In this document: positions 1-22,306 of the stretch, one piece after another
How positions within the stretch are numbered: position 1 is the stretch's first letter
How the letters are laid out: every line of letters starts with the position of its first letter
Assembly (NCBI GenBank): GCA_005879405.1
Contig: VBKW01000089.1
Span: 1 to 35,695, forward strand
Direction: 5' to 3'
Length of the DNA: 35,695 nucleotides
From: Deltaproteobacteria bacterium
GTDB taxonomy: Bacteria > Desulfobacterota > Binatia > UTPRO1
Position numbers and translations under genes: made by a program
The notes under the pieces: model-generated
Database searches by the model: none
Told to the model about the DNA's origin: nothing
Seen by the model: only the letters and a program-made list of their open reading frames with translations

Positions 1-1105
1 CCGCCTCGTGCCGGAAGCGCATGAACTCGTCGTAGAGCTCGACGCGCTCGGCGAGCGCGGCGGCGTCCTCGCCCGCGGCGTCGCGCCGGATGAGGTCGGT
101 CAAGAAGTCGTTCTCGAGCGCGATGAAGTCGCTGCCGGGGCTGTAGAACGGGTCGGCGAACGCGGCCGCTTCACCGGAGAGACCCCAGCGCTCGCTGCTG
201 AAGAAACGCCTCGTCGCATAGGCGAGGTGCGCGTAGCTGCCGACGTCGAGCATCTCCGCGTGATCGAGCAGCGACGCGACTGCGCGGTGACGCCCGAGAA
301 ACTCGGTGAACCCGGTCCTCGTACGACACGGGCCGTCGACGGCGTCGCGATCGCCGACGACACCGACGCTCGTGACGCCCTCCTTCAGCGGGATGAACCA
401 GATCCAGTAGCCGGGATAGCAGAAGTGGACGGTCGACAGCATGCGGCTGCTATGGCGGACGCGCGCGCGGAAGCTCTCGGGTCCGAACTGGTCGAGGTCG
501 CGAACGCCGGTGTAACGTCCCCACACCGCCGCGATCGCATGCTCGCGTTCGGGGACGCGCAGACCCTTGGCGCGCGCGACGAGGCTCGCGCGCCCGGCCG
601 CGTCGACGAGCCAGCGGCTCTCGCAACGGCCGTCGACGCCGTCGCCGTGAAATGCGAAGCGATGCTGCGCGCCATCGGATCCGAGCTCCAGGTCGTGCAC
701 GCGCACGCCGGCTCGCAGCGCCACGCCGTCGGCGCCGTTCAGTGCCCAGAGATCGCGCTCGAGTCGCGCGCGGTTGATCTGAAACGCGGGATGGAACGGC
801 ATCGCGACCGATCCGACCTCGGTCATCTCGTGCAGCTCGGCGGTCTTCGCGGGCGTGTCGAAGAAGAAGCGCAGGCCGTTCTTCGGCAGGTGGCGATCGT
901 AGAGGTACGCGGAGAGACCGAGGCGACGAATGAGATAGTTGCTCGCGATCTCGACCGTCGACTCACCGACCTTGTACGAGCTCTCGGTCGCCTTCTCGAA
1001 CACGCCGACGCGGAGCTGCGGCAGCGTGCGCCGCAGCTGGCGTGCGAGCAGCGAGCCCGCGAGGCCGCCGCCGATGATCGCGACGTCGAGCGTCAGCCGT
1101 TCCAC
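1..1105 (-). CDS. FAD-dependent tryptophan-halogenase-like enzyme (C-terminus cut by window start)
   Basis: This is a flavin-dependent enzyme of the tryptophan halogenase family; 368 codons are visible and no stop is reached. The N-terminus has the FAD-binding motif GGGLAG (residues 12-17), a GEST motif (47-50) and the halogenase signature WIWFIP (234-239, pattern WxWxIP). K75, in PKNGLRFFF, sits where the catalytic lysine of PrnA-type halogenases is expected, and a late DPFYSPG motif matches the family FAD site. I chose the GTG start because GGGAGG lies four bases upstream and no better in-frame start exists. It is the last visible gene of the polyene-like cluster, 65 bp after the C45 hydrolase. 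Related genes accompany xanthomonadin and flexirubin clusters, so halogenation of an aryl group is the likely role. Some members act as plain oxidases or hydroxylases, and the substrate is unknown. Confidence 0.85.
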   Translation of the reverse strand, partial: MERLTLDVAIIGGGLAGSLLARQLRRTLPQLRVGVFEKATESSYKVGESTVEIASNYLIRRLGLSAYLYDRHLPKNGLRFFFDTPAKTAELHEMTEVGSVAMPFHPAFQINRARLERDLWALNGADGVALRAGVRVHDLELGSDGAQHRFAFHGDGVDGRCESRWLVDAAGRASLVARAKGLRVPEREHAIAAVWGRYTGVRDLDQFGPESFRARVRHSSRMLSTVHFCYPGYWIWFIPLKEGVTSVGVVGDRDAVDGPCRTRTGFTEFLGRHRAVASLLDHAEMLDVGSYAHLAYATRRFFSSERWGLSGEAAAFADPFYSPGSDFIALENDFLTDLIRRDAAGEDAAALAERVELYDEFMRFRHEA

Positions 1106-1170
1106 TCGGCCTCCCGCATCGCGCGACCATAGCAAAGCGCGCCGGCGCGCTGCACGCGGAATCTGTGGCG

Positions 1171-3045
1171 CTACTGCGCCGTGACCCCGCGCCGCGCTTC
1201 TACGTCCGCCGCCGGGCTCTCCGGCACGAGCTCCACGACGCGCTGCCACGCCGCGCGCGCGCCCTCGGCGTCGCCAGCCGCGGCGCGCGTCTCGGCGAGG
1301 CCGCGCCACGCGAGGTGGTCGTCGCCGCGGAGCGCCAGCGCACGCTCGAACTCTTCGATCGCCGCATCCGTCCGGCCGCGCGCCCGCTCGCGTTCGGCTT
1401 CGCGACGCATGCGGGCGCCGAGCAGCTGGCGGTCCAACGCGCGCAAGCCGAGGAGCGGGTCGGGCGGAATGTCGCCGCGGGCCTCGTACTCCGCGACGTC
1501 GTCGTGCGTGTCGTCCGCACGTTCACGAGCGTCGGCGCCGCGCGCCGAGTCGCCGGCTGCCGAATTGACCGGGTCGCCCCGTGCCCGCGTGTCGTCGTCG
1601 CCACGGGCGCCTCCCTCGCGCCGAGCCTCTGCCGGCTCGCCAATCGGACCACCGAGGCGAGCGCCGAGATCGATGCGGCGGTACGCCCCGAGCGTGTGCG
1701 GGCCTTCCGAGACCCACACGACGCGTGCCGTGAGATCGGCGACGACCGAATGGGTCGCGATCAGCGCATCGATCGCGTTGCGATTGCCGAGCGGCAGCGG
1801 GACGTCGTCGACGCCGCTCCGGTCGCGCAGAATCGCGACCGCCGTCCAGGCGTCGACGCGGCCGTCGGCGCGTGTGACGAGCTGCTCGAGACGCGCTTCG
1901 CGCTCGACCGTCGACGTGTGCTCGCGCACGAACACGTTCTTCGGATCGCTCGCGAACGCCGGCGCCGCGAAATGATTGGCGACGACCATCACCGACTGGC
2001 GACGGCGCACTGCCGGCTCGAGACCGGGGGCACGCTCGATGACGGCCGACTCGCCGCTGGTGCCGTCCGCGACGAGAAGCATGTGCGATGCCATCGGCGC
2101 GTCGCGGACGGCGATCGCGATCGCCTCGTCGAGCGTGTGCGCCTCCTCGAGGATCGTGCGCGTGGTGAAGACGACCGGGACGCCGTGCTCCTCGAACGTT
2201 CCCGCGCGCGCGCCGTTGACGCTCACCCAGATTCCGGCGGCGTTCATGCCGCTCACGACCCCGGTGAGGCCGGGCCAGGCGATCGACACGAAGGCGAGGC
2301 GGCCCGCCGGCTCGACGATCTGCACGGTCTTCTCGGTGTCGAACCACGGATCGACGTCGAGATCGAAGTTGCGGCCGACGATCGTGTGACCCGGCGTCCC
2401 GCCGGCGCGCGTCGCCTCGCCGGAGGCGACGAACGCGGTGCAGCCGAGGAGCGGTGAGCGTTCGAACGCGAGCGCGATGTCGTAGAGGGCGTGCAGATAG
2501 ACGAGGCGGTGGTAGGGCGTCAGAAACGCGGGGCCGCGATCGCCGTACGCGATCGACTCGCCGTAGATCTCGGCGCGCCGCTCGGCAGGGAAGCCGCGGT
2601 CGACGTCGCGGTAGCGTGCGCGCACGACCGTGGTGAGCACCGAACGCAGAGCGGCCGAGGGGACGAACGTCGCGAAGAGATCGAGCATGCGAGCGTCGCC
2701 GGCGGCCATGATCGGCGCCGTGAGCCGCGCGTGGCGATACCCGAGCTGAACCGGATCGCCCGCGAGGTGCATCACCCAGAGCGCGCCGCGCCGCTCGAGC
2801 GACGCCGGACCGACGCGTGCGACGCCGCCGTCGAACCGCAGCGCCTCGTCGGGAGGCGGCGCCATGTCCGGCGGCGCGATGCGCGTTGCGCGCTGGAACG
2901 CGATTGCCCCGGCGGCACCGAGGAGCGCGAACAGCAGGAGCGCGCGCAGCCCCCAGCGCCGGCGCCGCGGCGGGCGACCGGGTTCCGAGGCGCCATCGCG
3001 AGCGGCCGCATCGCGCGCGGCGGCGGTCGTGCTCGGGAGCGCCAC
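1171..3045 (-). CDS. Membrane-anchored C45-family autoproteolytic acyltransferase/hydrolase with TPR-like tail
   Basis: The 624-residue protein starts with an Arg-rich segment and one membrane helix (about residues 32-50), so the catalytic part is probably periplasmic. The core resembles peptidase family C45 (isopenicillin N acyltransferase-like Ntn hydrolases): GCTAF at 201-205 supplies the predicted self-processing point and nucleophile C202, followed by GRNFDLD near 224-230. These enzymes cleave or transfer acyl groups on amide bonds. After a charged, low-complexity linker (about 470-540), residues about 550-605 form helical TPR-like repeats. The GTG start is the first in-frame start before the membrane segment, though its ribosome site is weak. 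It lies 97 bp after the MMPL exporter and 65 bp before the halogenase-like gene, which suggests a late acylation or deacylation step on the exported product. The fusion to a TPR tail is unusual. The substrate is unknown. Confidence 0.8.
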   Translation of the reverse strand: MALPSTTAAARDAAARDGASEPGRPPRRRRWGLRALLLFALLGAAGAIAFQRATRIAPPDMAPPPDEALRFDGGVARVGPASLERRGALWVMHLAGDPVQLGYRHARLTAPIMAAGDARMLDLFATFVPSAALRSVLTTVVRARYRDVDRGFPAERRAEIYGESIAYGDRGPAFLTPYHRLVYLHALYDIALAFERSPLLGCTAFVASGEATRAGGTPGHTIVGRNFDLDVDPWFDTEKTVQIVEPAGRLAFVSIAWPGLTGVVSGMNAAGIWVSVNGARAGTFEEHGVPVVFTTRTILEEAHTLDEAIAIAVRDAPMASHMLLVADGTSGESAVIERAPGLEPAVRRRQSVMVVANHFAAPAFASDPKNVFVREHTSTVEREARLEQLVTRADGRVDAWTAVAILRDRSGVDDVPLPLGNRNAIDALIATHSVVADLTARVVWVSEGPHTLGAYRRIDLGARLGGPIGEPAEARREGGARGDDDTRARGDPVNSAAGDSARGADARERADDTHDDVAEYEARGDIPPDPLLGLRALDRQLLGARMRREAERERARGRTDAAIEEFERALALRGDDHLAWRGLAETRAAAGDAEGARAAWQRVVELVPESPAADVEARRGVTAQ

Positions 3046-3142
3046 CCCGCGCGTGTTAGCAAACGGTCGCGACCTCCGCCATCGAGGCGCCGCACTGCCC
3101 GTCCGGGCAGAACGTCGCCGTATGCAATGGAATCGACCGGCG

Positions 3143-5716
3143 TCAGCGCGCGTCGCGGCCGCGGGCGACGACGGCGAGGAATCCGGGAAGGAGGCAGATC
3201 GCGGCGGCGAACGCGGCGGCGATCGCGGTCATCGCCAGCCACCCGAGGCCCTCGAGGCCGCGGTAGCGCGAGACGGCGAGAAATCCGAATCCTGCCATGG
3301 TGGTGAGCGTCGTGAGAGCCATGGCACGACCGACGAGCCGCGCCGCCGTGCCGAGGTCGACGCCCTCGCGCCAGCGTTGCACGAGATAGACGCAGTAATC
3401 GACGCCGATGCCGAGCGTCAGCGGCAGCACGATCAAGTTGATCGGCGTGAACGCGACGCCGGCAAGATGCATCGCCTCGATCGTGCCGAAGACGACGACG
3501 ATCGTCGGCAGGATGACGGCGAGCGCCGGCGCCAGCGCGCGCAGCTGCAGCAGCACGATGATGAGGTTCAGGATCACGCTCGCGACCGTGAACGCGACGA
3601 CCTCGCGGGCGATCACCGTGGCGAGCGCCGCCTCCATGAACGCCCGCCCGGTCACGACGACGTCGTCGCCGATGTCGGCGCGCAGCTGCTCGCGGATGGC
3701 GGCGAGACTCGCGCCCGCAGCGGGCGTGAACATGACCGCCAGCGTGACGCCGTCCGGGGTGCGCCGGAGATGGCGTTGCACGAGCGGGCGCAGCCAGGGC
3801 GCGTCGAGGTCGCGCGGGAGCGCCGCGTCGCTCGCGGCGAGCGCGGCTGCGGCGTCCGCGAACGCGTCGACGCGGAAGCGCTGGCGGGCGAGCTCGGTGA
3901 CGAGCGCCGCGCGCGCGCGCGCCAACGGCAACTCCGCGAAGGCCGCGCGTCGCGCCGCCTCGGTGGCGCGCGAAGGCAGGAACGTGGTGAGCGCCTGATA
4001 TCCGGAGATCGCGAGAGCAGGGTCCCCGGCGGTCGTGGCGTCGCCCTGGACCGCATCTGCCGCGTCGGCTGCGCGGCTGCCGGGACGCGTGTCGGTTGCG
4101 ACCGACTCGCGAGCGCCTGGCGCGCCCGGCGCACGATGCGCCTCGAGCCACTCGACGACGCGCTCCTCGCGCGCGAGCGCCTGCTCGAGGTCGGGCCCCG
4201 TGACCATCGCATGGCCGTCCGGGATGAGCGCGCCGAATTTCTCCTGGATCGCGTCTTCGGCCGCGACGGCCTGGGACCCGGTCGCGCGCAAGTGCAGCAT
4301 GTCGGCATCGACCGGAATCGGCGGTCGTACCGCGATCCAGATGACGCCGATCGCGGAGGCGACGAGCAGCGCGGGCAACGGCTGACGCCAGGACGCGGCC
4401 GCGATCGCCCCGAGCCACGGCGCTTCGAGCGGCGCCGCCGGCGGCGCCGCGAGACGGCCGGGGAACGTCGCCACGAGCGCCGGCAGGACGACGAACGTAT
4501 TGACGATGTTGACGAGCATGCCGATCGCGGTGAGCACGCCGATCTCACGCACGGCCGCGAGCGTCGAGAAGGCGATCACGGCGAACGCCGCCGCGGTCGT
4601 CGTCGACGCGACGACGTTGGCGACGCCGAGTCCCGCGCAGGTGCGCGTGATCGCCTCGTCGAGCGAGGCGGTCCGCCGCTCCTCCAGGAGGCGCCCGTAG
4701 AAGTAGATCACCGAGTCGATCGCGAGCCCGTAGAAGATCGCCGCGAAGCACAGCGACAGCGCGTTCAAGCGGCTGTAGACGATCACCGACGTCGCGAACG
4801 CGAAGAGCGACCCGGCGACGAGCTGGTAGCCGATCAACGGCAAGATGCCGAGATTGCGAAAGCCGAGCTGAAAGATCGCGATCACGCCGACGAGGGCGAG
4901 GAGCGTGTAGCGGATGACGTCGCGCTCGATCAGCTGCGCGTCCTCGCGCGCATGCGCGTGGGCGCCGCCGTAGAGAATCCGGAGACCGGCAAGCGCCGGA
5001 TCGGCGCGGACGTCGCGCTCGACCGCCTCCAGTCCGGCGAAGAGCTGGGCGGTGAAGACGCCGTCGAACGGCGACCCGGTGGGATCGAGCAGCAGCAGCC
5101 CCGACGTGCCGTCGGGGCTGAGGATGTGCGGATCCGTCGCCGCCGCCAGCGGATCGGCGTAGCGATCGCGGATCGTCTGGCCGGCGACGAGCGCGAGGCC
5201 GAGCGGGTCACGGCGGAGATGCTCGGTCATCTCGCCGCCGCCCGGCATCGACAGGATCTTCTTCACCTGGGCGACCGCGGTCGCGATCGCGTCGGGCTCG
5301 AGCCGCGCGGCGAGCTCGTCACGGCGCTCACGCGGGATGATCGCCGGCACGTGCACGGGATCGAGGAACGGGACGTCGCCGCCGGCGGCGTCTCGCCCGG
5401 CGATGACGTTCGCGACCTGCGGCAGCGCGCGATACCCCGCGGCCAGGCGGTCGATCGCGCGGCCGAGGACGGGGCCTTCGACACCGGAGACGAGCACCGG
5501 CAGCATCTGCAGCGAGCCGAACGTCTCGAGAAACTGCTTGTACTCGTCGAACGCGGGTGTCCCCGTCGGCAACGTCGACAGCAGATCGACGTCGAGGCGG
5601 AGCCGCGTGAGCGAGAGCACGCTGGCGAGCGTCAGCGCGAGCGAGCCGAGCAGCACGAGGCGGCGCCGGCGTACGGCCCACGCGCCGACGCTCCCCGCGA
5701 CGCTACGACCGCTCAC
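3143..5716 (-). CDS. MMPL/RND-family exporter (ApeM-like)
   Basis: This 857-residue inner-membrane transporter of the RND superfamily has two similar halves. Each has one N-terminal helix, a large periplasmic loop and a bundle of about five helices. The first helix is near residues 20-38, and the second half repeats the pattern from about residue 450. Length and layout match MMPL exporters in aryl polyene clusters and the hopanoid exporter HpnN. The GTG start overlaps the stop of the upstream lipoprotein gene in a GTGA junction, so the two are probably translationally coupled. Immediate neighbours are a lipoprotein, a LolA-like carrier and the dehydratase, a combination that implies transfer of a lipid-like polyene from the inner to the outer membrane. 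The direction and substrate are inferred from context. Confidence 0.9.
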   Translation of the reverse strand: MSGRSVAGSVGAWAVRRRRLVLLGSLALTLASVLSLTRLRLDVDLLSTLPTGTPAFDEYKQFLETFGSLQMLPVLVSGVEGPVLGRAIDRLAAGYRALPQVANVIAGRDAAGGDVPFLDPVHVPAIIPRERRDELAARLEPDAIATAVAQVKKILSMPGGGEMTEHLRRDPLGLALVAGQTIRDRYADPLAAATDPHILSPDGTSGLLLLDPTGSPFDGVFTAQLFAGLEAVERDVRADPALAGLRILYGGAHAHAREDAQLIERDVIRYTLLALVGVIAIFQLGFRNLGILPLIGYQLVAGSLFAFATSVIVYSRLNALSLCFAAIFYGLAIDSVIYFYGRLLEERRTASLDEAITRTCAGLGVANVVASTTTAAAFAVIAFSTLAAVREIGVLTAIGMLVNIVNTFVVLPALVATFPGRLAAPPAAPLEAPWLGAIAAASWRQPLPALLVASAIGVIWIAVRPPIPVDADMLHLRATGSQAVAAEDAIQEKFGALIPDGHAMVTGPDLEQALAREERVVEWLEAHRAPGAPGARESVATDTRPGSRAADAADAVQGDATTAGDPALAISGYQALTTFLPSRATEAARRAAFAELPLARARAALVTELARQRFRVDAFADAAAALAASDAALPRDLDAPWLRPLVQRHLRRTPDGVTLAVMFTPAAGASLAAIREQLRADIGDDVVVTGRAFMEAALATVIAREVVAFTVASVILNLIIVLLQLRALAPALAVILPTIVVVFGTIEAMHLAGVAFTPINLIVLPLTLGIGVDYCVYLVQRWREGVDLGTAARLVGRAMALTTLTTMAGFGFLAVSRYRGLEGLGWLAMTAIAAAFAAAICLLPGFLAVVARGRDAR

Positions 5717-6423
5717 GCGCGCGGCGCCGATGCGAGGCGCGCCCGCTGCACGTGTATCGCCATGCCGGCGCCGCTCGTCGGATCGGCGATGTGGAGATCG
5801 GTCGGCGCCGCATGCGGATCGTCGCGCGTGTAGCCCTCGTAGGTGGCGACGAGGAGCGACGTGCCGTCGTCGCGCACGTACTCCTCACGCACCGGGCGCA
5901 GCTGGTCGTCCACCGTCACGCGCGCGTGCAGTGCCGGCGCGACGCGACAGACGATGGTCGCGCCGCGCCCGCTGCACGCGTCCGGACGCGCCTTCGGCTG
6001 GAAGAGCAGCGCGAGCGCGACGATCATCCGATCCGAGACCGCGACCGCCGGATCGGCGAGCGTGGCGGGATCGATCGTCCCCTGCGTCGTTTGCTGGCGG
6101 AGCGGCAAGCTGAGGGTGTATCCGCCGTCGCGAATCGTCAGATCGAGGACCGTCATCCCGAAAGCAGAAAGCACTTGCAGGCGGATCGCGCCGGCGTCAT
6201 CGATCGCGAGGTACGCGGGCGAGGGGAGGACGCTCGCGTGCTCGGTGCCGACGAGACGCACCGTCATCGAGAGACGCAGGCCGCGCGTCGCGCGCTCGCG
6301 CGCGGCGAGCGCCGCGACGACCGCCTGCGGCGTCGCCGCCGTGCCGACGTGCGGCCGCCGCGGCGCGACGCAGCCGACCACGAGCGCGACGACCGCACAG
6401 AGCGCGGCGACGCCGCGGCTCAC
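5713..6423 (-). CDS. Lipoprotein of the polyene export module
   Basis: This 236-residue predicted lipoprotein has a short signal sequence ending in the lipobox LVVGC with modified cysteine C18. The body is rich in beta-strand patterns and resembles small outer-membrane or periplasmic lipid-handling lipoproteins (LolB/DUF3261-type) that accompany MMPL exporters in aryl polyene clusters; I cannot assign the exact family by eye. It starts at GTG, overlapping the dehydratase stop by GTGA, and its own TGA overlaps the GTG of the MMPL gene in the same way. No +2 aspartate follows the cysteine (the next residue is Val), which in enterobacterial sorting rules would favour the outer membrane. A role in receiving exported product is inferred from position. 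Confidence 0.75.
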   Translation of the reverse strand: MSRGVAALCAVVALVVGCVAPRRPHVGTAATPQAVVAALAARERATRGLRLSMTVRLVGTEHASVLPSPAYLAIDDAGAIRLQVLSAFGMTVLDLTIRDGGYTLSLPLRQQTTQGTIDPATLADPAVAVSDRMIVALALLFQPKARPDACSGRGATIVCRVAPALHARVTVDDQLRPVREEYVRDDGTSLLVATYEGYTRDDPHAAPTDLHIADPTSGAGMAIHVQRARLASAPRA

Positions 6424-6869
6424 GCCTCGGGGCTCCGGACGGGCGCGAATGCCAGGGTCAGGATCGCGGTCGCGCACACCTGCCCACCGGCGACGGCGCG
6501 ACCGTGGATGCGTGCCATGTCGGCGTAGCGGCGTGTGACCGTGATCTCGACCATGAGGACGTCGCCGGCACGCGCCGGGGCGCTCACCTCGCAGCGATCG
6601 ATCGCGGCGAGCACGGCGTTGCCGAGCGCGCGCAGCGCCGGCTCGCGCCGCATCAAGACGAGACCCGCCGCCTGCGCCATCGCCTCGACGACGAGAATCG
6701 GCGACAGGACGCCCGACGGGCCGACCAGCGGGTCGTCGACGGTCAGCCCCTTGCTGAACCGGCCGCCTTGCTCGTCGATTGCGAGGATCCGATCGAGGAG
6801 GAGAAACGGCGCCGCGTGCGGCAGGAAGTCCGCCGCGAGGTCGCCCGCCGACGGGACACGCGTGCTCAC
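6420..6869 (-). CDS. Hotdog-fold 3-hydroxyacyl-ACP dehydratase-like protein (FabZ/ApeP type)
   Basis: This 149-residue hotdog protein probably dehydrates 3-hydroxyacyl-ACP to the trans-2-enoyl form during polyene chain growth. The N-terminal LPHAAPFLLLDRI segment (residues 16-28) matches the FabZ start, and E62 in VEAMAQ matches the catalytic acid on the central helix. The usual GHFPG motif carrying the catalytic histidine is absent; its place is taken by residues around PLVGPSG (47-53). ApeP-type dehydratases of aryl polyene clusters also depart from the FabZ motif, so this may be the non-classical partner of a second dehydratase outside the window. GTG overlaps the LolA-like stop (GTGA), and its TGA overlaps the lipoprotein start. 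No enoyl reductase is seen nearby, consistent with a conjugated polyene product. Confidence 0.8.
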   Translation of the reverse strand: MSTRVPSAGDLAADFLPHAAPFLLLDRILAIDEQGGRFSKGLTVDDPLVGPSGVLSPILVVEAMAQAAGLVLMRREPALRALGNAVLAAIDRCEVSAPARAGDVLMVEITVTRRYADMARIHGRAVAGGQVCATAILTLAFAPVRSPEA

Positions 6870-7603
6870 GCGCTCGTCCCCGGCGTCGAGCGCGGCGCCG
6901 CGGCCGACGTCGCAGGCAGCGGGCGCAGGTGGATCGTGGTGCGGTCGCCGCCGCGCTCACGCAGGACGACGTCGGTCGCGAACGGACCGTCGGGCGCGAA
7001 GCGCAGCTCGACCTCGCTGAACGGCGCGGCGGGATCGCTCGGGCGGAGCGTCACCGCGTCGGGACCGTGCCACTCCTCGCGGAACTGCTCCGGGCCCTTT
7101 CCGCCGAGCATGAGATCGGTCATGACGTGGCCGAAGCGCGTGAAGCCAGAGAACTCCGGCGGGACCGCGACCGGCGCGCCGGCGGCGTCGAGCACGGTCA
7201 GCGTGTCGCCGTCGACCGCGATGGTCATCGTCTCCGGCGCGGTGAGCGCGAGCCGCATGTGATCGGGAGCGCGAAACTCGATCGTGCCGCTGGCGCGCAG
7301 CACCTCGTCGACGAGCGATACCTCGCGCTCCTGCTCGAAGAGCGCGCGCGCCGTCGTGACCGGCGGAAACCGCCGCGCCCGCGCCGCGAGCGACTGCGGG
7401 GCGGCGGCGCCCGCCTCGGACTGCCGCGCAGCGTCGGTCGCGACGGCGTGCCACGGCGCCATCACGTCGGCGGCGAAGGCAATGGACCACCACGACGCGG
7501 CGGTGGTGAGAGCGATCGCGAGCGCGCCGGCGGCACGCCGTCGGCGGGCAGCCGTTCTCGTCGTCACGGGCTGCCGTCCCGCGGGAGCAGTCCCTCTCCT
7601 CAC
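6866..7603 (-). CDS. LolA-like outer-membrane lipoprotein carrier protein (ApeL type)
   Basis: This is a secreted periplasmic carrier of the LolA fold, about 245 residues. An Arg-rich n-region and a hydrophobic stretch end in AFA, with cleavage expected before the next alanine. The mature part has the LolA-like pattern of beta-strands (for example the run around ASGTIEFRAPDHMRLALT) and a C-terminal beta-rich half. Such carriers sit beside MMPL exporters in aryl polyene clusters and are thought to ferry the lipid product. The start is uncertain. GTG at 7603 overlaps the chain-length-factor stop as GTGA, matching three further GTGA junctions in this run. GTG at 7567 would give a tidier 34-residue signal peptide. 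Neither has a convincing ribosome site. Confidence 0.78.
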   Translation of the reverse strand: MRRGTAPAGRQPVTTRTAARRRRAAGALAIALTTAASWWSIAFAADVMAPWHAVATDAARQSEAGAAAPQSLAARARRFPPVTTARALFEQEREVSLVDEVLRASGTIEFRAPDHMRLALTAPETMTIAVDGDTLTVLDAAGAPVAVPPEFSGFTRFGHVMTDLMLGGKGPEQFREEWHGPDAVTLRPSDPAAPFSEVELRFAPDGPFATDVVLRERGGDRTTIHLRPLPATSAAAPRSTPGTSA

Positions 7604-8844
7604 GGCTGCGCCAAGAGAAGCGCCGTGCAAGCGCCGCCGCGGGCGGTGCCGGAGACGAGCGCGGCACGCACCCGTGCCGGTGGCGGCGCGTCGGTCGTCG
7701 CGAGACGCAGCGCGCACGCCGGATCGGGGCGGCGGAGCATCGCGAGCGGAGGCACCGCGCGATCGCGCAGGGCGAGCGCCGCGGCCGCGACGCTGAACGC
7801 CCCGGCGCCGCCGAACTCGCCGATGGCGCCTTTCACCGACGTGACGAGCGCGCCAGGCGCGCGCTCGCCGAGAAGTGCCGCCAGATGCGTCGCCTCGAAC
7901 GCGTCGAGATCGCGCGTCGAGTTGGCGCACGAGACGATGACGTCGATCGCGTCCGCCGCGCGCAGGCGGCGCAGCTCGTCCGCGATCGCGGGGACGGCCG
8001 CCGGCCGCGGCCAGAGGTGCGTCGGCGCGGCGACGCTCCGCATCGCGTGGCCGACGAGCTCGGCGTACGGCGTCGCGCCGCGCGCGCGCGCGTGCTCGGC
8101 ACGCTCGAGGAGCAGCATCGCGACGCCTTCGCCCATCACCATGCCGTTGCGGTCGCGGTCGAACGGGCTCGACCATTCCCGTCCGCTCGCGCCGCCGCCG
8201 CGGCGGCGACGGCCGGGTGACAGAACGCCGAGGTCCTTGTTGACGTGGAAGAGGACGGGCGAGAGCTCGTCGCCGCCGCCCGCGAGCACGACGTCGGCGT
8301 GGCCGCACACGATCGTGTCGTACGCGACGGCGAGCGCCGCTTCGCCGGAGATCTCGTTGCGGCACACGGTCGAGTTCGGGCCGCGCAGCCCGAGCTCGAT
8401 CGCGACGTAGCCCGCCGCGGCGTTGAGGACGAGATTCGGGAAGATCATCGGGTTCGCGAGCGCCGGCCCCTTGGCGATCAGGCCGCCGAGGAAGGTCTCG
8501 GTCTCGAGGAGATTCCCGTACGCGCAGCCGATCACGACGCCGATCGCGTCCGCCTCGGTCGCGCTCGGCGCCAGCGCGCCGTCGTCGAGCGCCATGCGAC
8601 ACGCGCTCACCGCCATTTGCGAGAAGCGATCCATCCGTCGCAGCGACGTCGGCTTGATGTGGTCCTTCGGCTGCCAATCGCGCACGCGCGCCGCCGTTCC
8701 GGGCGGCGTCGGTCCAGGGTCGAACCAGTCGATCGGCACGAAGCCGTGCTCGCCCGCGCGTACGCGGTGCCAGAAGCGCGGCAGCGGCCCGAGCGGGCTC
8801 ACCATGCCGATCCCGGTCACCACGACGCGCGCGAGCTCACGCAT
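7600..8844 (-). CDS. Ketosynthase-like chain-length factor without catalytic triad (ApeC-like)
   Basis: This 414-residue thiolase-fold protein is related to FabF but has lost catalysis. Aligning GPNSTVCRNE (from G155) with the FabF active-site loop puts E164 where the nucleophilic cysteine should be; C161 is three residues too early. The HGTxT histidine region reads CANST (306-310), and the second histidine is E343 in VKGAIGEF, although K338 remains. These changes are those of a chain-length factor that pairs with an active ketosynthase, as in type II polyketide and aryl polyene systems. It overlaps the ketosynthase gene by 8 bp (ATGCGTGA), so the two are probably made in equal amounts as a heterodimer. 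ApeC is the nearest named equivalent by position and logic; orthology is not proven. Confidence 0.85.
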   Translation of the reverse strand: MRELARVVVTGIGMVSPLGPLPRFWHRVRAGEHGFVPIDWFDPGPTPPGTAARVRDWQPKDHIKPTSLRRMDRFSQMAVSACRMALDDGALAPSATEADAIGVVIGCAYGNLLETETFLGGLIAKGPALANPMIFPNLVLNAAAGYVAIELGLRGPNSTVCRNEISGEAALAVAYDTIVCGHADVVLAGGGDELSPVLFHVNKDLGVLSPGRRRRGGGASGREWSSPFDRDRNGMVMGEGVAMLLLERAEHARARGATPYAELVGHAMRSVAAPTHLWPRPAAVPAIADELRRLRAADAIDVIVSCANSTRDLDAFEATHLAALLGERAPGALVTSVKGAIGEFGGAGAFSVAAAALALRDRAVPPLAMLRRPDPACALRLATTDAPPPARVRAALVSGTARGGACTALLLAQP

Positions 8845-10054
8845 GGCCGAGCACCACCGAGGTGTTGTTGCCGCCGAACCCGTACGAGTTGGAGAGCGCG
8901 TAGCGCAGCGTCGCGTCGCGGCTCCCGCCGGGCACGAGATCGAGCGCCCATTCCGACTCCGGCTCCTCCAGGTTGACGGTCGGCGGCACGAAGCCGTCGC
9001 GCAGCGCGAGAATCGTCGCCAGCGCTTCGATCGCCCCCGCGGCGCCGAGCGTGTGGCCGACGGCGCCTTTCGTCGAGCTCACCGCGAGGTGCGGCGCCTC
9101 GCCGAACACGATGCCGATCGCCGCCGCCTCGACCGCGTCGTTCAGCGGCGTGCCGGTGCCGTGGGCGTTGATGTAGTCGATGTCCGCGGGCTGGAGACCG
9201 GCGTTCGCGAGCGCGCGCGTCATGGCGAGGATCGCCCCCGTGCCTTGCGGATGCGGCGCCGTCAGATGATGCGCGTCGGCGCTGTTGCCCCAGCCGACGA
9301 GCGCGGCATGCGCGCGCGCGCCGCGGCGCGCGGCGTGAGTTGCGGACTCGACGACGAGAATCGCCGCGCCTTCACCGAGGGAGAGACCGGCGCGCCGGCG
9401 ATCGAACGGCCGGCACGGCTCGAGCGAGAGCGCGTGCAGCGCGTTGAACCCCGCGAACGTCATGCGGCAGAGAGACTCCGTGCCGCCGGTCACGACGGCG
9501 TCGACGCGTCCGAGGCGGAGCCAATCGAGCGCCGTCCCGAGCGCGTTGCCGCTGGACGAGCACGCGGTGCTGAGCGCGAGTCGCGGGCCGCGCAGGTCGA
9601 ACACGTCCGCGACGACGTCGGCGCTGACCGAGATCGGGGCGCCGATGATCGGATCGGCGCCGTAGCGCGCGCTCCGCCCCTCGATACGCGCGCGTAGACA
9701 CTCCTCGGCGCGCAGCATCCCGCCGGTCGTGCCGCCGAGGACGACGCCGATGCGGTCCGGGGCGACCGCGTCCGTGATGCCGCTCTCCGCGAGCGCCTCC
9801 GCCGTTGCGCGCAGCGCGAACACGTCGGATCGCGACGAGCGTCGCCGCAGCGCGCGCGGGAGCGTCGCAGGCGCGTCGTCGTCGTGTACCTGGGCCGCGA
9901 TGCGGGCGCGATACCCTTTGGTGTCGAAGAGCGTCACCGGTCCGATCGCCGACGTGCCCGCGCGCAGCGCGGCCGCGAACTCGGCGACCGAGCTCCCGAG
10001 CGCGTTCACCGTCCCCAGGCCGGTGACGACCACCTGCGGGGCGCTAGCCTGCAT
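8837..10054 (-). CDS. 3-oxoacyl-ACP synthase, FabF-like (ApeO-type ketosynthase)
   Basis: This 405-residue condensing enzyme elongates an ACP-bound acyl or aryl chain with malonyl-ACP units. The whole triad is present: C165 in STACSSSG, H298 in HGTGTPLND and H334 in VGHTLGAAG, with K329 in SSTKG. The length is normal for FabF. The ATG start is preceded by GGTGAG two bases upstream, and there is a 55-bp gap after the ACP gene. The next gene is its catalytically dead paralogue, so the pair probably forms a KS-CLF heterodimer that sets chain length. It stands in an operon with ACP, reductase and dehydratase rather than with housekeeping fab genes, so a specialised-product role is more likely than primary fatty acid synthesis. 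Confidence 0.92.
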   Translation of the reverse strand: MQASAPQVVVTGLGTVNALGSSVAEFAAALRAGTSAIGPVTLFDTKGYRARIAAQVHDDDAPATLPRALRRRSSRSDVFALRATAEALAESGITDAVAPDRIGVVLGGTTGGMLRAEECLRARIEGRSARYGADPIIGAPISVSADVVADVFDLRGPRLALSTACSSSGNALGTALDWLRLGRVDAVVTGGTESLCRMTFAGFNALHALSLEPCRPFDRRRAGLSLGEGAAILVVESATHAARRGARAHAALVGWGNSADAHHLTAPHPQGTGAILAMTRALANAGLQPADIDYINAHGTGTPLNDAVEAAAIGIVFGEAPHLAVSSTKGAVGHTLGAAGAIEALATILALRDGFVPPTVNLEEPESEWALDLVPGGSRDATLRYALSNSYGFGGNNTSVVLGHA

Positions 10055-10109
10055 CTCTCACCAACGCGTCTGCCGCGAGCGCGGCGCGCCCGCCCCGAGG
10101 GATCCAGGC

Positions 10110-10385
10110 TCAGGCGCCACGGCTCTGCTCGGCCGCGATGAAATCGGCGAGCGCATTGATCGACGCGAACGCTTTCTTCCCGACCTCCTCGTCGGGGATG
10201 GCGATGCCGAAATGTTCCTCGATCAGCACGACCAGCTCGAGGGCGTCGATCGAGTCGAGGCCGAGACCGTCGACGAAGATCGGCTGGTCGTCGGCGATGC
10301 CGGCCGGGGCGACGTCTTGCAAACGCAGACCCGTGATCAAGAGCTCTTTCAGCCGGCGCTTCAGATCGTCGGAGTTTGTCGTCAT
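10110..10385 (-). CDS. Acyl carrier protein
   Basis: This 91-residue acyl carrier protein carries the growing chain as a thioester on phosphopantetheine. The attachment serine is S45 in GLDSIDALEL, and acidic helix II (LVVLIEEHFGIAIPDEE) follows as in the family. The ATG overlaps the stop of the reductase gene (ATGA), showing tight coupling. It is the only ACP visible in the cluster, so it probably accepts both the starter from the ligase and the elongation intermediates. Aryl polyene clusters commonly carry two ACPs, so a second could lie beyond the window start. Confidence 0.93.
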   Translation of the reverse strand: MTTNSDDLKRRLKELLITGLRLQDVAPAGIADDQPIFVDGLGLDSIDALELVVLIEEHFGIAIPDEEVGKKAFASINALADFIAAEQSRGA

Positions 10386-11123
10386 CCCATGACCAGCCCG
10401 CCGTCGACGGCGAGCATCGCTCCAGTAATATAGGACGCGGCCGGCGAGGTGAGAAACAGGACGGCGGCGGCGATCTCGTCGGGGCGCCCGGTGCGGCCGA
10501 GCGGAATCTGCGCGGCCATCTCCTCGCGCACGTGCGTCGGCACCGCGTCGAGCATCGGCGTCTCGACGATCCCCGGGCAGACGGCGTTCACCGTGATCCC
10601 GAAGCGCGCCACCTCACGCGCGAGCGAGCGCGTCATGCTGAGAAGACCGCCCTTCGACGCCGCGTAGTTCGCCGCGCCGGTTTTGCCGACGAGCCCCGCC
10701 GGTGAGATGACGTTGACGATCCGGCCCCAGCGCTGCGCGATCATCGGCCTGAGCGCGCGCCGCACGCAGAGAAACGGCCCCGTGAGATTCGTCGCCAGCA
10801 CCTCGTCCCAGGCCTCGTCGGAGAGCATCATCAAGTGCGCGTCCCTTCAGCTCGCCGAAGAGCGCCGCCACCGCTTGCGCGTCGCGCACGTCGGATCGCC
10901 GCACCACGTGCTCGCCGCCGACCTGCGCCAGCGCCGCCGCCGCCGATTCCGCATCGCTCTCCCGCGCAGCCCACGTGACGGTGACCGCCGCGCCCGCCCG
11001 CGCGAACGCCAGCGCGATCGCACGTCCGATCCCGCGCGTACCGCCGGTCACGAGCGCCCGCCGCCCCGCCAGCGCTCGCGTCGAGAAGACGCTCGCGATC
11101 GCGTCCTCAGCCGGCGGTGTCAC
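10382..11123 (-). pseudogene. 3-oxoacyl-ACP reductase (FabG-like SDR) broken by internal deletion and frameshift
   Basis: Two frames together encode one short-chain dehydrogenase that reduces 3-oxoacyl-ACP. The first frame (11123 to about 10846) carries the NADPH motif TGGTRGIG and ends in ALFGELKG. The second frame (about 10846 to 10382) resumes at RDAHLMMLSDEAWDEV and contains NYAASKGG with the catalytic Tyr and Lys. Compared with FabG, about a dozen residues are missing at the join, including the NNAG motif that holds the cofactor and catalytic Asn, so a small deletion changed the frame. It may be a genuine inactivating mutation, a programmed event (unlikely, as residues are absent) or an assembly error. 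The proposed GTG start has GGGAG just upstream; GTG at 11138 is an alternative. Because the operon is otherwise intact, an assembly or culture artefact is quite possible. Confidence 0.82.
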
Positions 11124-11258
11124 GGTCTCCCGCGTCACGCGCACCCGATCCGCGCCCCGCGAGCGCGACGCCCGCGGCGGCGAGGCGCTGCGACCGAGAC
11201 GTCGACGCGATATGCGAGACTGTGCGGAATCGTGCTCATGTCGCCGGGTGAGACTCCT

Positions 11259-11287
11259 CGTAAACAATGCGATGCCGATGGAGTCAA
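11259..11287 (-). promoter_or_regulatory. Possible sigma70-type promoter for the reductase-ACP-ketosynthase run
   Basis: On the minus strand TTGACT (11287-11282) is followed after exactly 17 bases by TTTACG (11264-11259). The -35 box matches consensus at five of six positions and the -10 at three. It lies about 135 bp before the reductase start in the 263-bp gap after the ligase gene, the longest gap inside the cluster, so a second transcript starting here is plausible. A 9-bp inverted pair GATCACGCG (11300-11308) and CGCGTGATC (11350-11358) lies just upstream and could be an operator or weak terminator. Confidence 0.35.
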
Positions 11288-11386
11288 ACCGCGTCACACG
11301 ATCACGCGAGGTCGCGCGGCCAATGCCGGAGGACGAGCTACGGCGAGGCCGCGTGATCTGGGATTGCCACGTGCAGGCGCCTCGAA

Positions 11387-12832
11387 TCACGCGTCCTCGA
11401 GCAGCTCCCCGATGAGGATTTTACCGAGCGGCGACCGTGGAAGCGCATCGCGGAACGTGATCACCCGCGGGATCTTGTACGATGCGATCAGCCTCCCGCA
11501 ATGGACGCGCAGATCCTCCGCCGTGCACGACACGCGCGGGACCACGGCTGCCGCGACGACCTGATCGCCGTGCGGTGTCGGAGTCCCGAACACCGCGACG
11601 TCGGCAACCGCGGGATGACCCCGCAGCACCGCCTCGACCTCCGCCGGGTTCACCTTGTTGCCCGCGCTATTGATGAAGAGGCTCGTACGCCCGGTGATCA
11701 CGAGATCGCCGCGCTCGCTCCAGTGGCCTTCGTCGCGGGTGCGCAGCGGCTGCGCGGGGCCGCCCATCGCCGAGTCACTGCGGACGATGATCTCGCCGGT
11801 CGCGCCGGGCGCGACCTCGGCGCCGTTCGCGTCCTCGATCGTGACCCGCACGGTTCCGACCGGGCGGCCCACGCTCGTCGGGTCGAGCTCCGTGAGCGGC
11901 GCGGTGTTGAGCGCGACGTCGCCGGCCTCGGTCAAGCCGTAGAGCTGCCGGATCGGAATGCCGAAGCGCGTGAGGAAGGCGTCGTAGACGTCGCGCGTCA
12001 GCGGCGCGCCGGCGCTGATGCAGAGCCGAACAGCGTCGAGTGACCAGCGTCGGCTGCGGTCCGTCGTGACGAGCATGCGCGCCATGAACGGCACCGTCGG
12101 GAAGACGGTCACCGCGCCCGCGGTGAGGAGATCGAGGGTCGGCCGGCGCAGGAACCGCGGTCGCAAGACGAGCCGTGCCCCCGTCCGCAGGCTCGTGAGG
12201 AGCGCGTTGCCGAGCCCGTAGGAGTGCGAGAGCGGGATCACGCCGAGGATCGCGTCGGCGCGGCCGATGTCGGTCGCCGCGGCGATGTTCTCCGCCTCCC
12301 ACCAGAGATTCTCGTGCGTGCGGACGACGGGCTGCGGGCGGCCAGTCGTGCCCGAGGAGTACGCGACGAACGCCGGGTCGTTCGCGATCGGCGGGCGCGG
12401 CGGGCGATGCGCGCCGCGGAGCGCCCGTGCGACGCGCAACCCGCCGGGCTCGACCGCCAGCGCGGCGAGCCCGGGCGGCGCGACGTCGGCGCTCTGCGCG
12501 GCGCCGACGAGCGCGCATGCCGCCGCTTCGGCGAGCGCGCGGCGAACCTCGGCCGCCGGTGCGACCGGCGCGAGCACCTGCGCCTGCGCGCCGCACGCCA
12601 GCACGCCGAGAAACGCCTCGACGAAGCCGACCGAGTTCGTGAGCCAGAGCGCGACGCGGTCGCCACCACCGATGCCCGCGGTCGCGAGCACGGCGGCGGC
12701 GCGGGTGACGCGCGTCGCGAGCTCGGAGGCGGTGAGCGCGACGTGCTCGTCTTCCACCAGCGGATGGCCGCGATCGCGTGCGGCGGCCGCGGCGAGCAGC
12801 GCCGTCACGGTGCGGTCGGGAGATCGGGCCAT
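11387..12832 (-). CDS. AMP-dependent acyl/aryl ligase (class I adenylate-forming enzyme)
   Basis: This 481-residue adenylating enzyme activates a carboxylic acid as acyl-AMP and transfers it to CoA or an ACP. The ATP-binding loop YSSGTTGRPQ lies at 158-167, with Q in place of the usual K of the GxPK motif. The adenine motif YGLTEAG, the SERGDLV motif of the hinge region and the C-terminal catalytic lysine K471 in PRSPLGKI are all present. In aryl polyene clusters the equivalent ligase (ApeH; XanA2 in xanthomonadin) loads 4-hydroxycinnamate- or hydroxybenzoate-type starters, so aryl priming is the likely role here. A fatty acid starter cannot be excluded. It is the first gene of the cluster and diverges from a response regulator gene, with 151 bp between the starts. 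Confidence 0.88.
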   Translation of the reverse strand: MARSPDRTVTALLAAAAARDRGHPLVEDEHVALTASELATRVTRAAAVLATAGIGGGDRVALWLTNSVGFVEAFLGVLACGAQAQVLAPVAPAAEVRRALAEAAACALVGAAQSADVAPPGLAALAVEPGGLRVARALRGAHRPPRPPIANDPAFVAYSSGTTGRPQPVVRTHENLWWEAENIAAATDIGRADAILGVIPLSHSYGLGNALLTSLRTGARLVLRPRFLRRPTLDLLTAGAVTVFPTVPFMARMLVTTDRSRRWSLDAVRLCISAGAPLTRDVYDAFLTRFGIPIRQLYGLTEAGDVALNTAPLTELDPTSVGRPVGTVRVTIEDANGAEVAPGATGEIIVRSDSAMGGPAQPLRTRDEGHWSERGDLVITGRTSLFINSAGNKVNPAEVEAVLRGHPAVADVAVFGTPTPHGDQVVAAAVVPRVSCTAEDLRVHCGRLIASYKIPRVITFRDALPRSPLGKILIGELLEDA

Positions 12833-12983
12833 CAGTCGACGTGCGTGTTACCACAGCGTCTCCGCGTTGCCGAGGCGCGCGCGTCCGTGTGAGCGATGTC
12901 GCCGCGTCGAAACGGCTGGCGCGGGGTCGCCGAGTGGTCTACAAAGAACTGCCCCCCTTCATCGATGTGGTGGTGAGATGACG

Positions 12984-13442
12984 ATGGCGAAAACGAATGC
13001 TTCGCACCAGAAGGCCCGGGCACCCGAAGAACGTCCGACGATTCGACTGCTGCTGGTCGACGACCATCCGCTCGTTCGCGAGGGGCTGAAGCGCGTGCTC
13101 AGCTCGATGGTCGGAGTATTCGTCGTCGGCGAGGCGTCGACGGGTGAGGACGCGATCGCGCGCGTCCGCGACCTCGAGCCCGACATCGTCATGATGGATC
13201 TGTCGCTGCCGAAGATGAGCGGCATCGAGGCGACGCGCATCATCCGCAAGGATTTCCCGCAGACGCGCGTGCTCGCGCTCACGATGCACATGGAGGAGGT
13301 CTACGTCCGCGGCGCGCTCGAGGCGGGCGCGAGCGGCTACCTCGTGAAAGACGCGCGTCCGAACGAGCTCGTGCGGGCGATCGAAACGGTCCAGAGCGGC
13401 GAGCCCTACGTGATGACGGGTGCGGCGCCGAAACTTCGCTGA
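12984..13442 (+). CDS. Receiver-only response regulator (NarL/FixJ-type without DNA-binding domain)
   Basis: This 152-residue protein contains one complete receiver domain after a 20-residue charged leader. The acidic pair D26-D27, phospho-acceptor D72 in MMDLSLPKMSG, the switch Thr in LALTMHM and K122 in YLVKDA are all present. It ends shortly after the receiver at MTGAAPKLR, where NarL-type regulators would enter the linker to the LuxR HTH, so the output domain is missing. I prefer ATG at 12984 because GGTGAG lies six bases before it; ATG at 12978 has no spacing. It is closely similar to the receiver of the LuxR-type regulator at 28390-29037. It may act by protein contact, as a phosphate sink, or be a truncated remnant. 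A 35-bp gap separates it from the diiron protein gene. Confidence 0.85.
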   Translation: MAKTNASHQKARAPEERPTIRLLLVDDHPLVREGLKRVLSSMVGVFVVGEASTGEDAIARVRDLEPDIVMMDLSLPKMSGIEATRIIRKDFPQTRVLALTMHMEEVYVRGALEAGASGYLVKDARPNELVRAIETVQSGEPYVMTGAAPKLR

Positions 13443-18585: not shown

Positions 18586-19749
18586 TCAGCCGGCGCCGGC
18601 CCCGCGCAGCCGAACCATCTCTGTGATGACCGCCGCCGTCCGCGCCATGTCGCTCACCCGCAGCCACTCGTGGACGGTGTGGATCTTCTGCATGCCGGTC
18701 CCGAGGTTCGCGACCTCGAACCCGCGGCGGTTCAGCACGTTCGCGTCGCATCCGCCGCCCATCGCGGCGCTCTCCACCGACGCGCCGATCGCCTGCGCGG
18801 CACGGAGGACGAGCTGCACGATCGGCGACTCGTCCGGCACCGCCATCTCCTCGTAGCTGCGGAAGATCCGCGACTCGACGGAGGCGCGCACCGGGCCGTC
18901 GCTGCAGTTCACGATGTGGCGCGCGGCGGCCGCTTCCAAGCACGCGCGCATGTGCGCGCATTGCGCCTCGAGCTTCGCGACGTCGTGGCTGCGGGCCTCG
19001 CCGTGCAGCTCGACGCGGTTCGGCACGATGTTCGTCGCCGCGCCGCCGCGGATCGTGCCGATGTTCGCCGTCGTCTCGGCGTCGATGCGGCCGAGGCGCA
19101 TGGCGGCGATCCCCTCGGCCGCGACGCGGATCGCGCTGATGCCCTCCTCGGGCGCCATGCCGGCGTGCGCCTCGAGGCCGTGGACGACGAACTCGAGGTG
19201 ATTCGCCGCCGGCGCGCGCGTGAAGAGGTAGCCCGGCGCGTCGCTATCGAGGACGAGACCGGAGCGGGCGCGGAGCCGTGACACGTCGAGGTGCTTCGCG
19301 CCGAGGAGCCCCACCTCCTCGCAGATCGTGAAGACGACTTCGAGGTCGCCGTGCGGGATCCGCTGCTCGGCGAGGACGTGCAGCACCTCGCAGATGATCG
19401 CGCAGCCCGACTTGTCGTCGCCGCCGAGCACCGTCGTACCGTCGCTGCGGATGACGTCGCCCTCGATGATCGGCTTCACACCTTCCCCGGGCACGACGGT
19501 GTCCATGTGGGCGGCGAGCAGCAGCGGCTCAGCGGTGACGGTGCCGCGGACGTGCGCGAGAAGATTTCCGACGTTGCCGCCGACCTGCGTGCCGGCGTCG
19601 TCGTACCAGATCTCGGCGCCGAGCGCGCGCAGCTCGCGCTCGAGGCGCTCGGCCACCGCGAGCTCCTTGCGTGAGTGGCTGTCGATGCGGACGAGCTCGA
19701 GAAACAGCGCGGTCAGGCGTTCGGTCGAGATCGCCGACGCGGAGCTCAT
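18586..19749 (-). CDS. M20-family metallopeptidase (PepT-like)
   Basis: This 387-residue zinc-dependent exopeptidase of clan MH resembles PepT/tripeptidase and related M20 enzymes. Metal-site motifs are AAHMDTV (H81, D83), GGDDKSG (110-115), CEEVG (E144-E145), LDSDAPG (D168) and a C-terminal KIHTVHE histidine. A lid or dimerisation domain occupies about residues 178-300, with HAGMAPEEG matching the family motif. It probably trims short peptides in the cytoplasm, as no signal peptide is seen. The start ATG is the first in frame and has no clear ribosome site. It converges with the membrane protein gene. Confidence 0.92.
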   Translation of the reverse strand: MSSASAISTERLTALFLELVRIDSHSRKELAVAERLERELRALGAEIWYDDAGTQVGGNVGNLLAHVRGTVTAEPLLLAAHMDTVVPGEGVKPIIEGDVIRSDGTTVLGGDDKSGCAIICEVLHVLAEQRIPHGDLEVVFTICEEVGLLGAKHLDVSRLRARSGLVLDSDAPGYLFTRAPAANHLEFVVHGLEAHAGMAPEEGISAIRVAAEGIAAMRLGRIDAETTANIGTIRGGAATNIVPNRVELHGEARSHDVAKLEAQCAHMRACLEAAAARHIVNCSDGPVRASVESRIFRSYEEMAVPDESPIVQLVLRAAQAIGASVESAAMGGGCDANVLNRRGFEVANLGTGMQKIHTVHEWLRVSDMARTAAVITEMVRLRGAGAG

Positions 19750-19766
19750 GGCGCCGACTTTACACG

Positions 19767-19780
19767 CGGAGCGCGCTCCG
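19767..19780. repeat. 14-bp perfect palindrome between peptidase and prepilin genes
   Basis: CGGAGCGCGCTCCG is a perfect palindrome lying 18 bp before the M20 start and 42 bp after the prepilin stop. It could be an operator for the peptidase gene or part of the prepilin terminator. There is no T run. Confidence 0.3.
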
Positions 19781-19821
19781 ATGCACGCGCCCGTACGTCG
19801 GATCGGGCGCGACGAGCGGCC

Positions 19822-20199
19822 CTACATCATGATGAAGTTCGGATCGCCGGGGAGTGGGTCGCTCACCCAATCGAACTGGTGCGCCGCCTGCAGATGCGAG
19901 CCGTGGACGCGGAACGACGTCGCCAGGTCGCCGCTGTTGCCCGGCGAGACCGTGATGTCGACGTCCCCGGGGACCATGCCGGCCAGCTGCGCGATGTTGC
20001 CCGTGTACCCCTGATTGCCGGCGTAGTAGGCCTCCTCGCCCGTCGCGACGTGGCGCACGGCCGCCATCACCTTCGAGTCGTAGCTCCGCGCCCGGTAGCT
20101 GGCGTACTGAGGGATCGCGATGCTCGCGAGGATGCCGATGATCGACGTCACGACCAGGAGCTCGATGAGGGTGAAGCCGGCCTGTCCCTTGGTGGACAT
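19822..20199 (-). CDS. Type IV prepilin / pseudopilin with class III signal
   Basis: This 125-residue prepilin has the leader MSTKGQAG, with prepilin-peptidase cleavage expected between G8 and F9. FTLIELLVV follows with glutamate at +5 (E13), and the hydrophobic helix continues through IAIPQYASYRARS. The globular part is short (about 95 residues) and lacks a C-terminal cysteine pair, as in small delta-proteobacterial PilA proteins and in minor pseudopilins. I chose ATG at 20199 because it gives the canonical short leader; the frame is open further up but encodes nothing prepilin-like. No prepilin peptidase or assembly gene is in the window, so it relies on machinery elsewhere. A type II secretion pseudopilin is an alternative. 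Confidence 0.9.
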   Translation of the reverse strand: MSTKGQAGFTLIELLVVTSIIGILASIAIPQYASYRARSYDSKVMAAVRHVATGEEAYYAGNQGYTGNIAQLAGMVPGDVDITVSPGNSGDLATSFRVHGSHLQAAHQFDWVSDPLPGDPNFIMM

Positions 20200-20267
20200 G
20201 CGATCTGAGCAGAGCAAGGGCGATGCCACCGACCCGCCATGACGGGCGGCGAGCCGCGCGAGCGATA

Positions 20268-20288
20268 ACACAGGGTTGACCCCTGTGT
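20268..20288. promoter_or_regulatory. Inverted repeat upstream of the prepilin gene
   Basis: ACACAGGG, a 5-base spacer TTGAC and CCCTGTGT form a perfect 8-bp dyad about 70 bp before the prepilin ATG. On the minus strand it runs into TGTTATCGC, which includes a -10-like TGTTAT. The dyad could be an operator over the prepilin promoter or the base of a leader hairpin. The regulator is unknown. Confidence 0.4.
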
Positions 20289-20337
20289 CCCGTCGCCGCG
20301 GCGACGAGAGTGTGCGTCGAATGACGGTCGCGGCCGA

Positions 20338-22154: not shown

Positions 22155-22260
22155 GGGGGCAACCGTCCTCGTGGGATCACGTGAAGGATGCGAGAAACTC
22201 GGGGGTGGGATAGTAGCAGAGCGCTTTTCGGAGGACCAGGCGCCAACCATGACCGGGACG

Positions 22261-22299: not shown

Positions 22300-22306
22300 T
22301 CGCCGA

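Follow-up and report, generated by a model that had tools for sequence, protein, structure and literature searches.

Contig VBKW01000089.1 of the Deltaproteobacteria bacterium assembly GCA_005879405.1 (class Binatia; 35,695 nucleotides, analysed whole and called the window here) carries a minus-strand gene run (2-12832) that resembles an aryl polyene (APE) cluster and continues into two seemingly odd late enzymes, a C45 autoproteolytic acyltransferase/hydrolase and a halogenase-like flavoenzyme. Does this run encode a new system or a variant of a known one? An earlier note on the sequence had described the run from a ligase to the halogenase-like enzyme, and family searches recovered every function that it named. 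We consider it probable that the cluster is a variant APE cluster of the xanthomonadin/flexirubin kind; since both odd enzymes recur in polyene clusters, it would be a variant of a known system rather than a new one. Its variant features are a full-length chain-length factor (CLF), an apparent lack of ApeD and ApeJ, and a neighbouring five-gene cassette. On this reading an uncultured lineage joins the bacteria that are candidates for making polyene pigments of the outer membrane. The window is one entire contig (G000:C453; genome of 4.49 Mb in 468 contigs, about 70% G+C); we refer to its own genome as G000, to a same-genus genome as G001 and to a genome of the same family as G002.

Ketosynthase kinship and gene content

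The ketosynthase (KS; 8837-10054) has Cys-His-His in its active-site columns and a STACSSS motif. In a 37-row tree its clade (support 99/98) took in E. coli ApeO, the KS of the Persicobacter polyene cluster and further class KS; a comparable clade of 16 rows (98/98) had come out of a first tree. The approximately unbiased (AU) test rejected (p-AU 3.3e-6) a grouping in which six KS of the window's family were joined to FabF of E. coli and five FabF-like class KS. Seven of the 20 class loci L019-L038 passed the open reading frame (ORF) filter for these trees, and the 37-row tree omits four long-branch rows. The KS thus appears to be of the ApeO kind rather than FabF, a placement for which a denser reference set is needed. 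The CLF (7600-8844) is 414 amino acids (aa) long, versus 240 aa for E. coli ApeC and 293 aa for the Persicobacter CLF. Its active-site Cys is replaced by Glu and its two His by Cys and Glu; Glu stands in place of the Cys in all ten examined class CLFs of the window kind, and a second CLF kind in the class (n = 3) has Phe or Leu at this position.

Four further functions of APE clusters (carrier protein, ketoreductase, dehydratase and ligase) are also represented. The acyl carrier protein (ACP; 10110-10385) is of the ApeE type (PRK09184, 71.7 bits, cut-off 70), being 44% identical to ApeE and 54% to the ACP of the Persicobacter cluster. The AMP-dependent acyl ligase (11387-12832, start possibly near 12808; PF00501, 1.6e-68) is only 22% identical to E. 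coli ApeH and has a 76% identical counterpart at the same position in G001. A hot-dog 3-hydroxyacyl-ACP dehydratase (6420-6869) matches PRK00006/FabZ (2.7e-18, below cut-off) and, by phmmer, ApeP (1.1e-5). The FabG-like ketoreductase (10382-11112, 5' end approximate), in which two frames match families of short-chain dehydrogenases/reductases (SDR), has a C-terminal part 36% identical to ApeQ, and its frame is broken in this assembly. Kinship to the aryl polyene/xanthomonadin family, which the earlier note had proposed from gene content, is thus borne out by that content and by the KS tree.

The LolA, MMPL and LolB-like export set of APE clusters is also present, ApeL and ApeM being recognised by sequence and ApeN by fold. 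The LolA-like periplasmic carrier (6866-7600, start approximate) matches lolA (2.2e-9) and flexirubin LolA2 (6.1e-6), both below cut-off, and ApeL by phmmer (2.4e-6). The MMPL/RND exporter (3143-5716; PF03176, 1e-26) is 25% identical to ApeM (7.8e-16) and 20-22% to the MMPL proteins of two Bacteroidota loci described below. The lipoprotein (5713-6423; lipobox VVGC) has no family match and no sequence match to ApeN. Its AlphaFold model (pLDDT 78) resembles 3bk5 (7.6e-9) and LolB 1iwm (3.2e-8) in Foldseek, and on this LolB-like fold we propose it as the ApeN counterpart. The roles of the trio are taken from PMC8253772. The E. coli CFT073 APE cluster (apeA-R), whose genes are tabulated in that paper, shares KS, ketoreductase, dehydratase, ACP, ligase and LolA/MMPL/LolB-like export with the window.

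Among the ten gene junctions of the run, six are overlaps of 1-8 bases and the others gaps of 274, 55, 97 and 65 bases, with gene starts approximate. Gene content and order are the same on contig C61 of G001, with identities of 70-97%.

The C45 enzyme and the flavoenzyme

The C45 enzyme (1171-3045) scores 153 bits against the NF040521 proenzyme model (cut-off 85) and carries a C-terminal TPR region. It keeps a Gly-Cys site (GC202T, Cys202) and GRNxD, which we take to be C45 processing marks. Hydropathy indicates that a basic stretch near the N terminus is followed by a membrane segment, as in the Aureispira homologue, which suggests that the domain lies on the periplasmic side. Among 72,556 plasmid records we found two C45 matches at E<=1e-8, both from Bacteroidota (Persicobacter pPP6 and Aureispira pAUEa), and both genes sit in the row MMPL - flavin adenine dinucleotide (FAD) enzyme - C45 - ligase. 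Upstream of this row Persicobacter has genes for KS, ACP, CLF, a deacetylase and LolA, and its ligase scores 566 bits against the FlxY flexirubin model (cut-off 520); the Aureispira stretch starts at the start of its record, with upstream genes outside view. The enzymes of the window, G001, Persicobacter and Aureispira formed one clade (100/99.9) apart from 26 others, including the second C45 of the window's own genome. That tree was built from 35 loci (26 distinct rows, eight repeats and L098, which gave no match) plus the four polyene-cluster rows.

These flexirubin-type clusters, to which those of Flavobacteriia can be added from PMC5932025, share with the window a same-clade C45 beside MMPL and ligase, and Persicobacter pPP6 also shares LolA, ACP and KS. 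They differ in a CrtD/CrtI-like FAD enzyme, a FlxY/PaaK-like ligase (Persicobacter), an acyltransferase-fused MMPL protein and a short CLF. The same 2018 paper places this acyltransferase family among APE genes in connection with the johnsoniae APE cluster, if the eggNOG name given there is read as the C45 family, and it counts four Deltaproteobacteria as APE-positive; the association of C45 with APE genes is therefore already in print. Our literature searches, with limited subscription coverage, found no paper stating the role of the enzyme in polyene clusters. C45 as an invention of this cluster was ruled out by the Bacteroidota polyene loci, the C45 clade and the published listing, and the earlier note's view that the enzyme is foreign to described clusters was not supported. 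A polyene-cluster C45 enzyme that recurs across phyla is worth a genetic test.

Matches to C45 at E<=1e-10 occur in seven of 148 class genomes, namely two of the window genus and five others at only 29-32%. A contig scan with two strict C45 peptide patterns returned one locus (JACQEO010000002.1) and is weak as a negative. A sequence search of the PDB with the C45 enzyme found only TPR and designed proteins.

The flavoenzyme gene (2-1105; PF01494, PF04820) is truncated to 368 of about 528 aa because the window is the whole contig and the gene runs off its end. It contains GGGLAG, KNGLRF, WIWFIP and FADPFYSPG, the last of which fits FxxPxxSxG. GxGxxG, a catalytic Lys and WxWxIP, which we take to be halogenase marks, are all present. 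The nearest solved relative of the 528-aa G001 flavoenzyme is CmlS (3e-21), its best solved relatives are halogenases, and the Lys aligns with that of CmlS, CndH and ChlB4. Such motifs are no proof of halogenation. A hydroxylase or dehydrogenase acting on the polyene head, which is compatible with the APE reading, is a serious alternative to which we give somewhat less than even weight. It would fit with scores below every curated cut-off for named halogenases, with weaker matches to non-halogenating flavoenzymes (for example QhpG and the geranylgeranyl reductase family), and with the strict FxxPxxSxG pattern, which was not found in G002 or in six APE-locus copies. Against it, those copies keep the aligned Lys and WxWxIP, and halogenases remain the best solved relatives.

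Matches to the flavoenzyme at E<=1e-40 were found in 11 of 145 class genomes. Relatives in other families (54-60%) follow an ApeQ homologue at six of six loci, with ApeP before it; in four of the six the fetched stretch also includes ApeD, E, H, I and J, and contig ends cut the other two. A seventh fetched locus, L151 (33%), has none of these Ape genes, and an eighth match, G016 (33%), lies outside the fetched loci. Halogenase genes are also described for the xanthomonadin-type clusters of Xanthomonas and Azoarcus (PMC3691225, PMC3949708). The enzyme is therefore less unusual than the earlier note had supposed. The xanthomonadin-like clusters of Xanthomonas, Lysobacter and Azoarcus (arc) further share a CSSS-kind KS (Lysobacter), LolA and an exporter with the window, and differ in a half-length CLF, the XanB2 starter enzyme and glycosyl- and acyltransferases; C45 goes unmentioned in the available portions of these papers.

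Linkage of the C45 and halogenase-like genes in related genomes, which the earlier note had made a check on its reading, was found in part. In G001 both lie on one contig, 4.9 kb apart, and G002 gave no C45 match at E<=1e-10. The G002 flavoenzyme (57-59%) lies beside FabG-, ApeJ- and ApeG-like genes on a 17.6-kb contig (G002:C133, L041) that also carries a window-type KS/CLF pair, ApeJ, ApeG and ApeL homologues and an ApeO-type KS. This contig seems to combine the usual APE genes with the variant core seen in the window, and may represent an intermediate linking the two types of cluster.

A proposed pathway and the readings weighed against it

From gene content and kinship we infer the following pathway. 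The ligase would activate an acyl starter, probably aryl, for the ACP, and malonyl units would be added to it by the KS-CLF pair. With no enoyl reduction, each beta-keto group would become a double bond through the action of the FabG-like reductase and the FabZ-like dehydratase, to yield a polyene acid. The flavoenzyme, CmlS-like and with no membrane segment, would modify the aryl head in the cytoplasm, most simply by halogenation, and the MMPL protein, LolA and LolB-fold lipoprotein would bring the lipid-linked pigment to the outer membrane. C45, probably periplasmic, may come in at this late stage: a self-activating enzyme, either acyltransferase or hydrolase, it would shift the polyene acyl group on its final acceptor or set it free. 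The product may be conjectured to be halogenated or amide-modified, as the earlier note had suggested.

A number of observations weigh against this reading, among them the lack of a C45 match in G002 and the FxxPxxSxG pattern of the window copy, not found in the flavoenzymes of G002 and the six APE loci. The grouping submitted to the AU test was picked after the first KS tree had been viewed. Pairwise BLAST puts the KS nearer E. coli FabF (39%, 234 bits) than ApeO (35%, 205 bits). Among NCBIfam models, FabF comes first (403 bits, cut-off 494), ahead of PRK09185 (358, cut-off 407). Despite these scores, a fatty-acid FabF was rejected by the tree and AU test; the tree does not place the KS with fatty acid systems, the outcome that the earlier note had named as telling against it. 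The CLF is full length, unlike the short ApeC/ORF16-type CLF of APE clusters. Of the distant plasmid relatives of the flavoenzyme (four records, at most 36% identical), one lies next to a type I polyketide synthase. The membrane side of C45 rests on a hydropathy plot, and a membrane segment of this kind is absent from the Persicobacter enzyme in its annotated form. The C45 AlphaFold model, from a two-row alignment, reached a pLDDT of 42 and was not used. The C45 matches in G003-G005 are only 29-32% and lie elsewhere in their genomes. In 20 of 20 other C45 neighbourhoods, including that of the window genome's own second C45 (5-20 kb each, picked non-randomly among matches above the family cut-off), there was no KS, CLF or MMPL match at E<=1e-5; four held a single match to a ligase, SDR or ApeJ-like glycosyltransferase.

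Missing genes and the ketoreductase complete this list. Compared with the E. coli CFT073 cluster, the operon in the window has a single ACP, a single elongating KS and a single dehydratase; its CLF is full length, and C45 and the flavoenzyme are additional. The membrane-anchoring enzymes ApeD and ApeJ, expected of APE clusters, had no counterpart on the 40.8-kb G001 contig: tblastn with E. coli ApeD, ApeI, ApeJ and ApeK gave no match at E<=1e-4. Such a search has little power for short, diverged proteins, since it also missed ApeL and ApeP, whose counterparts exist there. Across six genomes of the family, ApeJ has a strong match (46%) in G002 alone, the others being generic (32-35%). In line with the absences that the earlier note had claimed (acyltransferase, glycosyltransferase, second dehydratase), ten scanned downstream genes of G001, with two ORFs of its 4.9-kb insertion outside the scan, contained no PlsC-type acyltransferase, glycosyltransferase or hot-dog domain. 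The starter-making enzyme was likewise said to be absent, and PF00221, the family of the tyrosine/histidine-type ammonia-lyases of flexirubin clusters, was found in none of the six family genomes (five of 14 control genomes were positive; other starter-making enzymes were not searched). A coumarate starter made by a PF00221 ammonia-lyase thus found no candidate in the window's family.

These points can also be read as a type II KS-CLF system whose product is not an aryl polyene but another reduced or unsaturated acyl chain (a fatty acid linked to a lipid, for instance) that leaves by the same MMPL/Lol route. Besides the pairwise nearness of the KS to FabF, the CLF length and the negative PF00221 search, such a system would accord with the match of the MMPL protein to HpnN, a model for hopanoid transporters (7.8e-51, though well short of the cut-off), and with the related KS/CLF pairs that four genomes from three other families have near cobalamin-type radical S-adenosylmethionine (SAM)- and deacetylase-like genes. 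We regard it as unlikely, as the KS tree favours the ApeO side with the FabF union rejected, and the ApeE-type ACP, the ApeL/M/N-like export set, C45 and the flavoenzyme are common to polyene clusters.

The ketoreductase gene is split over two frames: DNA alignment with the intact G001 copy shows 47 bases missing, out of frame, from the part holding the NN(A) motif. Assembly error and true mutation are indistinguishable from the present sequence, and activity of the cluster in the window strain is uncertain because the gene reads broken in this assembly. That the gap, with its loss of the NN(A) segment, has left a decayed cluster and ended pigment production is quite improbable, given that the other run genes read open and score as coding, that a housekeeping FabG could substitute and that the gap may be an assembly error of a metagenome bin.

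A five-gene cassette beside the G001 cluster

On the G001 contig a 4.9-kb stretch with a G+C content near 60% comes after C45, and beyond it lie the genes for the flavoenzyme (528 aa) and a small CMD protein. A block of five genes is next, encoding a ligase, an FAD oxidoreductase (PF12831), an HxxxDG protein of 464 aa that matches no Pfam family, an ACP and another enzyme of the halogenase type. Further on are genes for a polysaccharide deacetylase, a membrane protein resembling LPG synthase and a protein of the PEMT/ICMT kind. The cassette order HAL3 - ACP2 - HxxxDG protein - FAD oxidoreductase - ligase, with HAL3 divergent from ACP2, is the same in seven genomes from several class families (G000, G001, G002, G008, G047, G060 and G069). 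Its loci are L039:618-4960 and L057:11159-12403 (G001), L115 (G000:C262), L128, L130, L131, L132 and L133. In the window genome it lies on the 4.8-kb contig C262, cut at both ends and 74-86% identical to the G001 block. G043 has three cassette genes, a 4-kb gap and a contig end, and G035 a distant partial set near a KS.

KS, MMPL (27%) and ACP genes lie near the cassette in G060; the stretches fetched from G002, G008, G047 and G069 gave no KS match near it, and in G008 and G047 an APE-type cluster lies elsewhere on the cassette's contig. The HxxxDG protein occurs at E<1e-100 in 11 of 145 class genomes, among them all nine with the flavoenzyme at E<1e-180. By the hypergeometric test this co-occurrence has p = 9e-13 by genome, 5e-7 by genus and 0.006 by family (17 families assumed), the genomes spanning three families and related genomes not being independent. 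Co-occurrence is not coupling. It does connect the APE clusters of one class with a halogenase-like enzyme and with an ACP/HxxxDG cassette that is still uncharacterised. That the class APE pathway is coupled to a cassette that builds a halogenated acyl group joined to the polyene, with a periplasmic C45 transacylase and the cassette replacing ApeD/ApeJ anchoring to give a new type of aryl-polyene conjugate, is a doubtful proposition.

The 4.9-kb insertion in G001 (C61, about 19285-24185, L039), where the window has a 65-base gap, holds a short ORF that resembles HicB. The related KS/CLF pairs at L049-L056 (G030, G050, G092, G087), with a second pair in three of the four loci, have neighbours that by resemblance, without a family scan, are like cobalamin-type radical SAM, polysaccharide deacetylase, LPG-synthase-like and ICMT-like proteins; they possibly belong to another polyene or lipid pathway. 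At the other end of the run, a short response-regulator-like ORF on the plus strand (12978-13442), divergent from the cluster, is a possible regulator, and a counterpart lies upstream of the G001 cluster.

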